From assembly GCA_024280215.1 (NCBI GenBank), contig JAJRQO010000034.1:1-64000 (forward strand): a stretch of DNA of 64,000 nucleotides. The letters run 5' to 3'. Below, one piece after another: positions 38,957 to 62,801 of this stretch. Every line of letters begins with the position of its first letter. The first letter of the stretch is position 1. The DNA comes from Candidatus Zixiibacteriota bacterium. Its GTDB lineage: Bacteria > Zixibacteria > MSB-5A5 > GN15 > FEB-12. A program made the translations under genes and the position numbers. A model generated the notes under the pieces. That model ran no database searches. It saw only the letters and a list, made by a program, of their open reading frames with translations, and was not told the origin of the DNA.

Positions 38957-39074
38957 CCCTGTAAGTCACAAAACAACAACAAGATAGGGCTATTATGGCA
39001 GGTTTGCTCTATTATTTATTTTATTGCACTTCAGAATTCAAAATAATCATCCGATATAACTAATAGATTATTAA

Positions 39075-39183
39075 ATCAGGGGATACGGGTTATTTCGTCA
39101 AGAAATTTCCCTCTGTAAAATGGTCGACAAAAGCGGGGGTAGGAAAATTATCCGATTGTAATTTCATACAATCGGATTTTTTT
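39075..39183 (+). terminator. Strong intrinsic terminator preceded by a G-rich leader-like segment
   Basis: ATCCGATTGT (39150-39159), eight-base loop, ACAATCGGAT (39168-39177), then seven Ts: a textbook terminator. It lies about 190 bases after bshB1 and just before the CDF promoter. The 75 bases upstream are G-rich with short inverted repeats (AGGGGA...TTTCCCT; GCGGGGGTAGG), more structured than a plain 3' tail. It may be only the end of the bsh mRNA, or a separate small RNA. I do not recognise a riboswitch class. Confidence 0.6.
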
Positions 39184-39184
39184 A

Positions 39185-39213
39185 TTCTCAATTTGTCTTA
39201 CTTTTTGTATCAT
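39185..39213 (+). promoter_or_regulatory. Possible leaderless promoter of the CDF gene
   Basis: TTCTCA, 17 bases, TATCAT, then five bases to ATG 39219. The -35 is weak, the -10 good. Confidence 0.4.
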
Positions 39214-39218
39214 ACGAT

Positions 39219-40103
39219 ATGACAAAACAAGAACAATATGTCAAAGATGGTTTCAAAGTTACAATTGTTGGAATTGTAGCAAACTTAGTGTTAGTAGCAC
39301 TCAAAATCTATGCTGGAATTGTTGGTAAAAGTCAGGCATTAATCGCTGATGGTATCCACTCCCTGTCTGATTTACTCTCTGATTTTGTTGTACTTGTTGG
39401 ACTGAAATGGGGTCATCAGGAAGCTGATGACAACCATCCTTTCGGGCATGGCAGAATTGAGACTATCTCAAGCATGGTCATTGGAATTCTTCTCATAGCA
39501 GCGGGTGGTGGAATTGTTTTTAATGCTGTAACTGCTCTTTATGAACATCAAAAAGCACAACCTACTTTACTCACGCTCATAATTGCTTTTTTGTCGATTG
39601 CAATAAAAGAAGCCATGTATTGGTACACTCTATTGGCTGGGAAGAGAATGAAAAGCATGCTTCTTATCGCTAATGCTTGGCATCATCGTACTGACGCTCT
39701 CTCATCGGTTGCGGTACTCATTGGAATCGGTGGCGTCTATCTCAACCCTAATTGGTATCTGGCTGACTCATTGGCTTCATTGTTTGTTACCTATTTTATC
39801 TTACGAGTTGGTGGACAGATGGTATGGCATGCTCTCAAAGAAGTTGTAGATACTGCTCCTGATAAAGAGGTCTTAGAAAACATCAAAAATGTCGCCCAGG
39901 AAGTTGATGGTGTTTTAAATGCCCATGATATTCATTCTCGTTTTTCTGGTGGGCAAATTTTCTCCGAAATTCATATTGTTGTTGACCCTGAAATCACCGT
40001 CAGGGAGGGGCATGATATTGCTGATAATGTCGAAGCAACTGTCCTTGAAAAAATCGATGATCTCGTGCGGGTAATTGTACATGTCGACCCTGAAATTGAT
40101 TGA
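39219..40103 (+). CDS. Cation diffusion facilitator (CDF) family metal exporter
   Basis: 294 residues with six membrane segments and a C-terminal cytoplasmic metal-binding domain. Metal-site motifs are ADGIHSLSDLLSDFVVL in TM2, the HPFGHGRIETISS loop, and WHHRTDALSS in TM5 (HxxxD). The C-terminal domain has GVLNAHDIHSRFSGG and IHIVVDPEITVREGHDIA. It exports Zn2+, Fe2+ or Mn2+ in exchange for protons; the metal cannot be fixed by eye, although the HxxxD/DxxxD pattern here (HSLSD, HHRTD) is of the Zn type. Single gene between a terminator and tRNA-Sec. Confidence 0.9.
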   Translation: MTKQEQYVKDGFKVTIVGIVANLVLVALKIYAGIVGKSQALIADGIHSLSDLLSDFVVLVGLKWGHQEADDNHPFGHGRIETISSMVIGILLIAAGGGIVFNAVTALYEHQKAQPTLLTLIIAFLSIAIKEAMYWYTLLAGKRMKSMLLIANAWHHRTDALSSVAVLIGIGGVYLNPNWYLADSLASLFVTYFILRVGGQMVWHALKEVVDTAPDKEVLENIKNVAQEVDGVLNAHDIHSRFSGGQIFSEIHIVVDPEITVREGHDIADNVEATVLEKIDDLVRVIVHVDPEID

Positions 40104-60549: not shown

Positions 60550-61770
60550 ATGACATCACCTTTGAAAATAACATCTACTCAAGCACGACGACTCGCTCTC
60601 CACGCATCGCTTCTTTATGGAAAATCTCAGCTCCCAAAGAAGAAAGAGGGCGTCTTAGCAGTCATCAACCATCTCGGTTATATCCAGATGGACACTATCT
60701 CAGTTGTTGAACGAGCTCATCTGCATATCCTTTGGACAAGGTGTCCAGATTTTAAGCCAGAATACTTGCATCAACTGCAGTCAGAAGATAGAAACATATT
60801 TGAGTATTGGGGGCATGCCATGTCGTATCTCCCGATGGAAGACTATCGTTTTTACATGCACTCGTTCAAACGGTTTAATAAACCGGATGGTAAATGGAGC
60901 AAAATACGGTTTGAAATAACTAAAACTCTCAGACCAAAAATCCTCAAACGTATCAAAAATGAAGGTGCTTTAGGTTCAAAAGATTTTGAAAATTCAAGCG
61001 GTAAAAAAGCAAACGGATGGTGGGATTTCAAACCTGCTAAGATAGCTCTGGAATTATTATATTGGCAGGGGAAACTGATGATTTCCGAGCGACAGAATTT
61101 CCATCGCAAATATGACTTAACTGAGAGAGTTCTTTCAAATCATATCAACACAAAACCTCCAACACAAAAAGAACAAGCACAGTTTTGGATCTATCGTGCC
61201 TTACAATCATTAGGGGTTGCTTCTGTTTCAGACATAAAAAAACATTTATACCATTGTGACAAAACGCTTATAACAAATGAAGTGAAAAAATTAGTTAAAT
61301 CTTCTAAATTATTACCAATCACAATAGATGACATTTCAGAAACATACTACGCTATCAAAGATAATTTCGAAACTATATATCCAATAAAGAAGCAAGTAGA
61401 TAAACTACATATTATCTCGCCATTTGACAACGCTGTCATAAACCGTGACCGTTTACAAAGACTTTTTGATTTCACCTATACTATCGAATGTTATGTCCCG
61501 AAGCCAAAAAGGAAGTTCGGATATTTTGTGCATCTTATCTCATGGGGTGACAAATTTGTTGGACGACTGGATATGAAAGCTGACAGAAAAGCAAAAGAAC
61601 TCATAGTGCATAATATCTTCTTAGAGGATTCTTTCAAACTTACAGAATCGTTTTCAAAAGCACTCGAAAAGAAACTTAAATTATACGCCAAGTTTAATAA
61701 TTGTACGACAATTTCGCTTAGCCAATCCGAACCAAGCTCGTTTATCGCCGCACTTTCTAAAATTATATAA
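60550..61770 (+). CDS. YcaQ/AlkX-type winged-helix DNA glycosylase-like protein
   Basis: 406 residues (E. coli YcaQ 410), the HTH_42 family. It starts QARRLALHASLLYG and contains LGYIQMDTISVVERAHLHILWTR, in which Q-M-D is the catalytic QxD motif of the AlkX/YcaQ branch (AlkZ has QxQ). Other family segments are NIFEYWGHAMSYLPMEDYRF and the C-terminal LIVHNIFLEDSF part. AlkX unhooks DNA interstrand crosslinks made by bifunctional alkylators. It lacks a ribosome site and carries its own promoter. Domain order and length are normal. Confidence 0.87.
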   Translation: MTSPLKITSTQARRLALHASLLYGKSQLPKKKEGVLAVINHLGYIQMDTISVVERAHLHILWTRCPDFKPEYLHQLQSEDRNIFEYWGHAMSYLPMEDYRFYMHSFKRFNKPDGKWSKIRFEITKTLRPKILKRIKNEGALGSKDFENSSGKKANGWWDFKPAKIALELLYWQGKLMISERQNFHRKYDLTERVLSNHINTKPPTQKEQAQFWIYRALQSLGVASVSDIKKHLYHCDKTLITNEVKKLVKSSKLLPITIDDISETYYAIKDNFETIYPIKKQVDKLHIISPFDNAVINRDRLQRLFDFTYTIECYVPKPKRKFGYFVHLISWGDKFVGRLDMKADRKAKELIVHNIFLEDSFKLTESFSKALEKKLKLYAKFNNCTTISLSQSEPSSFIAALSKII

Positions 61771-61795: not shown

Positions 61796-61887
61796 CTGTC
61801 GGTTCCTTATTCGCTTTAGCGAATTGAGAACTGACAGATTTGTAAAGTGTCAGGTGTATCATGCTAAAGCATGAAAGCACCCGATAC
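61796..61887. repeat. Pair of composite palindromes with GCTTTAGC core
   Basis: First: CTGTCGGTTC .. ATTCGCT-TT-AGCGAAT .. GAACTGACAG (61796-61837, one G-U). Second: GTATC .. CATGCT-AA-AGCATG .. GATAC (61856-61887). The second read on the - strand has the same GCTTTAGC core, so the two copies lie in opposite orientation. Confidence 0.5.
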
Positions 61888-61977
61888 AACGATTAATAAA
61901 CTCAGATTCATTACATCTACATATTTAAATCAAGTATATTTTTTATAAAATCATCAGGGGGGATTCTCAAAAAATGC

Positions 61978-62054
61978 AATAAAAAAGCCGCTGTCCGTTC
62001 ATCACGGGAACCGAAGCGCCCATGACGGGGGAGGGAAGTTAGGACAACGGCGAT
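61978..62054 (-). ncRNA. Candidate small structured RNA ending in an intrinsic terminator
   Basis: On the - strand GCCGTTGTCC pairs with GGACAGCGGC (10 bp) and is followed by TTTTTTATT. Inside is a second stem TCATGGG/CCCGTGA with a CTTCGG-containing loop. Both the outer and inner stem contain one position that is a C-A mismatch when read as + strand RNA but a G-U pair on the - strand, which favours - strand transcription. A C-rich unpaired tract (TTCCCTCCCCC) lies between the stems and could pair with ribosome sites. A weak -10 (TATAGA) lies just upstream on that strand. No adjacent - strand gene needs a terminator. Confidence 0.5.
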
Positions 62055-62262
62055 ATTTTTCTATACAGACAAATGATAAAATAATTCACGATTCAATTGT
62101 CATTTAAATGTCTTTTTTAAGCAATATGCTTAATTTAGCCATCGTAGCACTTAAATTCCGTCATAGAATTAGATGCGGACAAATAGTACATTAATATACT
62201 ACGGCTGTCAATAGAAAATTGTTGTAATTTGAATTATTTTTTAGCAGAGTTGTAACTTTCAC

Positions 62263-62300: not shown

Positions 62301-62801
62301 ATGAAAACAAAACGTACAGATTATATTAATTGGGATGAATACTTTATGGCAATCGCCCAACTTTCTGCCAAAAGATCCAAAGACCCATCCACGCAAGTTG
62401 GTGCGTGCATAGTGAATAGCAAAAAACGAATAATCGGTATCGGATATAATGGCTTTCCAATCGGTTGTTCTGATGATTTACTGCCTTGGGACAGAGAAGG
62501 GGACTTCTTGGATACAAAGTATCCATATGTCTGCCATGCCGAGATGAACGCAATTACGAACTCCTCAAATAAGACCCAACTTGAGGGTGCATCTATCTAT
62601 GTTTCGCTCTTTCCATGTAACGAATGTGCCAAATTGATAGTTCAAGTTGGCATGAAAGAGGTTGTCTATCTTTCTGATAAATACTCTGAAACGGATGTTT
62701 TTATTGCTGCCCGCAAAATTTTTGAAATGGCTGGTGTGAGAATGAGACAATTGACTGTTGATACCAAAGAAATTCAACTGAATTTGAGTAACGATTTATA
62801 A
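62301..62801 (+). CDS. dCMP deaminase family protein
   Basis: 166 residues of the zinc cytidine-deaminase superfamily, ComEB/dCMP-deaminase branch. [26 protein letters not shown] is the substrate-binding opening; the zinc site is HAEMNAI with PCNECAK. It converts dCMP to dUMP for thymidylate synthesis in the cytoplasm. A further insert [17 protein letters not shown] is typical for the dCMP type. It stands alone between noncoding DNA and glnA. No ribosome site before the ATG. Confidence 0.92.

Follow-up and report, generated by a model that had tools for sequence, protein, structure and literature searches.

A candidate minus-strand small RNA with a conserved, exposed C-rich tract in Candidatus Zixiibacteriota

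Locus, fold and strand of the type A RNA

The window (the whole stretch of 64,000 nucleotides that was analysed) belongs to a genome of 3.03 Mb that is split into 42 contigs. The element at 61978-62054, here called type A, stands alone between a gene for an AlkZ-like protein (60550-61770, plus strand) and a dCMP deaminase gene (62301-62801, plus strand), with a glutamine synthetase gene, identified by its sequence, also near it on the plus strand. The flanking genes were all on the plus strand, in agreement with the preliminary description, which had seen no minus-strand gene near the element. A strong hairpin, GTGTCAGGTGTATCATGC..GCATGAAAGCACCCGATAC, was observed at 61846-61888 downstream of the AlkZ-like gene (fold z of -4.65 on the plus strand).

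Folding of the minus strand of 61978-62054 gave -32.5 kcal/mol with a z of -4.08, a value reached by none of 200 shuffles, while the plus strand gave a z of -0.29. This stretch is the terminator-proximal core of the small RNA candidate. Its outer stem is formed by a 5' arm, GCCGUUGUCC (62042-62051), and a 3' arm, GGACAGCGGC (61987-61996), and is followed by a U6 run (61981-61986) that completes the shape of an intrinsic terminator. An inner hairpin, CGUCAUGGG..CCCGUGAUG, with 9 bp and a further 2 bp at the loop, occupies 62000-62027. Before it lies the unpaired C-rich tract UUCCCUCCCCC (62027-62037), whose last C may be the first base of the inner stem; the mean predicted unpaired value of the tract was 0.90, or 0.92-1.00 without the last C. 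The stems, the UAACUUCCCUCCCCC tract and the U6 run after the outer stem were all found where the preliminary description had placed them. It had also counted one strand-specific wobble per stem, which was correct for the outer stem (62047/61991), but there are two in the inner stem (62026/62001, 62022/62005) and another at the loop (62017/62010). As these wobble pairs would be A-C mismatches on the plus strand, they fix the strand of type A as minus.

Two promoter-like sites were found upstream on the minus strand, each agreeing at 10 of 12 positions. The proximal site, ATGACA-N19-TATCAT (62073-62103), has counterparts at a like distance in G002 (ATGACA-N19-TATACT) and G001 (GTGACA-N17-TATAGT) and is not clear in G003. 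The distal site, TTGACA-N17-TACTAT (62183-62211), is resembled in G003 (TTGACT-N17-TACTAT) and G002 (TTGACT-N17-TAATAT), and no counterpart was found at the corresponding position of G001. Neither site is kept across all four species, each having a like site in two of the three relatives. In the explanation that we favour, 61978-62054 would be the 3' part of a stand-alone minus-strand small RNA gene, with a predicted transcript of about 85-90 nt from the proximal promoter or about 200 nt from the distal one.

Conservation and range of type A

A BLAST search against 99 genomes found type A in the other three species of its genus. It was present in all four species of the genus that were examined, as a single copy with the same neighbours, at an identity of 92-100% (G001 and G003 against the window), while the spacer around it was barely alignable. 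Over the 77 columns, G003 is the same as the window, G002 has a short change in the loop, and G001 has a few scattered differences. The C-rich tract is invariant in the four species and the U6 run is the same in all of them.

None of the 21 pairs is broken in any species, so that every cell of the outer stem and of the inner hairpin is paired. Two pairs changed on both sides, both in G001 (G-C to A-U in the outer stem and U-A to C-G in the inner hairpin), and two on one side. The wobbles 62026/62001 and 62022/62005 were kept in every species, and the others stayed wobbles or became standard pairs. The covariation score was matched by 61 of 500 shuffles, and the support from covariation is modest because there are only three distinct sequences. 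Covariation in relatives, the test that the preliminary description had itself proposed, came out modestly in favour of type A (two double changes among three distinct sequences) and strongly for type B, another RNA that carries this tract.

These data bear on two other readings of the element. The U6 terminator shape, on a strand with no downstream gene, would suit a mere terminator of an unannotated minus-strand transcript with no function in trans, but a terminator needs neither an invariant 14-nt loop strand nor a conserved inner hairpin sequence, and no minus-strand gene lies within reach upstream; we regard this reading as improbable. A tiny protein encoded on the minus strand would have a frame of 18 codons, the only overlapping minus-strand ATG frame seen, with its ATG in the inner hairpin. 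This we consider extremely improbable, because a 1-nt deletion in G002 falls inside the frame and would break it, and it is the pairing that is kept.

At the gathering score of Rfam 15, the only match in the window was tRNA-Sec; type A matched no family, and relaxed thresholds gave nothing but weak chance matches in its region. The evidence is strong that type A is a real and conserved small RNA candidate that matches no Rfam family. The computed fold and alignment support well its description as a gene for a structured RNA on the minus strand, with predicted transcription and a C-rich tract that is both conserved and exposed.

The range of type A was narrow. A covariance model gave full-length matches in the genus only, among 133 genomes of the phylum. 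Weaker matches of the model were set aside, those inspected being mostly ordinary terminators. The exact core pattern occurred in 13 stretches of the GTDB genome set, of which the model accepted three, all from relatives of the genus (two MAGs named Candidatus Zixiibacteriota and one filed as Calditrichaeota); a scan of viral contigs with this pattern found none. The dCMP deaminase loci of 26 other genomes of the bacterial family held no type A.

Other RNAs with the C-rich tract

When the four genus genomes were searched for the complement of the tract, three proved to hold another terminator, with UUCCCCUCCCC as its loop. A phylum-wide pattern search and the stretches retrieved with it showed that this type B is one RNA across many genera, in which a 5' hairpin precedes a terminator of 10 bp whose loop is C-rich (L184 816-925 in G000:C13; further loci L212-L241). 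Of the 55 genomes of the bacterial family, a model (R2) built from 29 aligned copies matched 46 at E<=0.05 and 40 at E<=1e-9, and 12 of these 40 had given no training sequences to the model. Beyond the family, the best match was 1.1e-5. Tandem copies on one contig were seen in G017 and G011 (three each) and in G035 (two). Among 34 distinct sequences, 96.7% of cells were paired, with 67 double-change cells vs 19.1 in shuffles, and the covariation score was reached by none of 500 shuffles, in an alignment that was fitted to the model and so leans towards its structure. A GGAAA/GGAAC motif was also observed about 45-75 nt upstream of 17 of 35 copies, vs about 4 in shuffles (L212-L241); it could represent the -35 element used by an alternative sigma factor.

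The conserved core of type A does not have the 5' hairpin of type B. Outside the tract, similarity between the two was not above that of tract-keeping shuffles (p = 0.12 and p = 0.44), and we therefore did not retain type A as a member of type B by common descent. Since both carry the same seed in one genome, they probably have common targets or a common partner.

Other genera of the family hold at least two further types of C-tract/terminator RNA. Four g20 genomes (L202-L205) have ACCUCCCUCCCC, then a hairpin, then a terminator, and in two g26 genomes (L182-L183) the tract lies in a hairpin loop within a long terminator stem. Single loci in G015, G027 and G039 have a C-tract near a terminator. 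The loci noted for C-tract/terminator RNAs of different layouts were L202-L205, L182-L183, L190, L191 and L209. The pattern CCCTCCCC-N6-36-T6 gave 106 raw matches in the bacterial family vs 37 for a reversed control, raw counts that are inflated by repeated counting of several offsets of one T-run. None of 19 loci of type B and the other C-tract RNAs matched Rfam 15 at the gathering score. It is conceivable, though we hold this only tentatively, that in a family without detectable Hfq these RNAs of separate origin (A, B, g20, g26 and others) share a CCCUCCCC seed, by convergence, as one regulon or through a common RNA-binding partner.

Seed, targets and known C-rich RNAs

A search for Hfq found it in none of the 55 genomes of the bacterial family, with positive controls in five known genomes, and on this result Hfq-dependent small RNAs were rejected as the class of types A and B. 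A literature search in an open-access library gave nothing related on small RNAs in Zixibacteria, so that the C-rich RNAs described here may be a first lead to regulatory RNAs in this phylum. Two RNA families, of which one occurs in most genomes of a bacterial family, share a seed where Hfq is not detectable, and with them one can test whether the absence of Hfq goes with repeated origins of C-rich seeds.

RsaE/RoxS of Firmicutes are C-rich small RNAs in which C-rich motifs act as seeds (see also PMC8216469). Their likeness to the present RNAs lies in these motifs, and the difference is that the RNAs here match no Rfam family. RepG of Helicobacter pylori binds a G-repeat in the tlpB mRNA leader with a C/U-rich terminator loop (PMC8295292). 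Type B has the same layout, a C-rich loop in the terminator, a likeness of shape only, whereas type A carries its tract within the terminator stem, in an internal and not in the terminal loop; the sequence relation to RepG was compared through Rfam only. The anti-SD RNAs SmelA075/SmelA099 (RS0680a) of Rhizobiales and Rhodobacter have hairpin loops that contain CCUCC and occur in several copies per genome (PMC3927594), two features shared by the RNAs described here. However, they are modular, with three or four hairpins that each contain CCUCCUCCC, while here each RNA has one C-tract, beside or in the terminator. LhrC1-5 of Listeria are multicopy small RNAs (PMC4132741, PMC5880928), which the tandem type B loci of G017, G011 and G035 resemble in being multicopy, but they are CU-rich where the present RNAs are C-rich.

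The terminator at the end of type A is of the intrinsic kind, and its stem is broken by an internal loop, large and asymmetric, that holds the unpaired UUCCCUCCCCC. This tract would serve as a seed for G-rich stretches of mRNA (GGGGAGGG-like, strong ribosome-binding sites among them), and pairing in trans would alter the translation or stability of the mRNA without Hfq. We judge it fairly probable that type A is a small RNA gene whose C-rich seed is offered to G-rich sites in mRNAs, which may be ribosome-binding sites.

A narrower form of this explanation is that the tract is chiefly anti-Shine-Dalgarno and represses many mRNAs at GGAGG-type sites, to which the preliminary description had noted that it is complementary. 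The tract contains CCUCC, SD-like motifs are in use in this organism (in the window they precede 17 of 41 long ORFs), and Rhizobiales have multicopy RNAs with CCUCCUCCC loops, all of which make such a role possible. However, start regions exceeded random windows only slightly in their complementarity to the tract (p = 0.10), and the typical SDs in the window are AGGAG, which matches CCCUCCCC only in part. The anti-ribosome-site reading is thus weakly supported, and we treat it as a possibility that we do not favour. The unclear enrichment of complementarity at start sites would also suit C-rich loops that are protein-binding sites, with the RNAs as sponges or scaffolds for a C-tract-binding protein, as would a near-identical C-tract held in a loop or beside a terminator by RNAs without shown common ancestry. 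C-rich seeds that pair with mRNA are known in other bacteria, though (PMC8295292, PMC3927594), and we consider protein binding unlikely.

For the favoured seed pairing, a search of the four genus genomes with GGGGRGGGRR recognised no shared or conserved target. The matches, which we discarded, fell for the most part in the RNA genes, in a dispersed repeat, or at sites inside or antisense to ORFs. The partner suggested earlier, 39130-39145, did not hold up: its duplex with the tract was among the best in the window, yet the complementarity was unexceptional in G003. For pairing of the RepG kind, this leaves one leader with some complementarity that does not stand out in that species.

The 39130-39145 segment belongs to a conserved leader of a cation-efflux gene. 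The leader (39066-39185, plus strand; also L242 15770-16090) consists of CAGGGGATACGGGTTATTTC..GAAATTTCCC..GGGG-TAGGAAAATTAT and then a terminator, and directly precedes the cation-efflux (CDF) gene at 39219. Its fold was compared in two species, with z values of -5.7 and -6.3, and in Rfam it had no match near a gathering score; it may be riboswitch- or attenuator-like. A run of about 12-13 G was also observed at about 1501-1513 of L115 (G000:C42, near 62522), possibly a G-repeat partner or a phase-variable tract.
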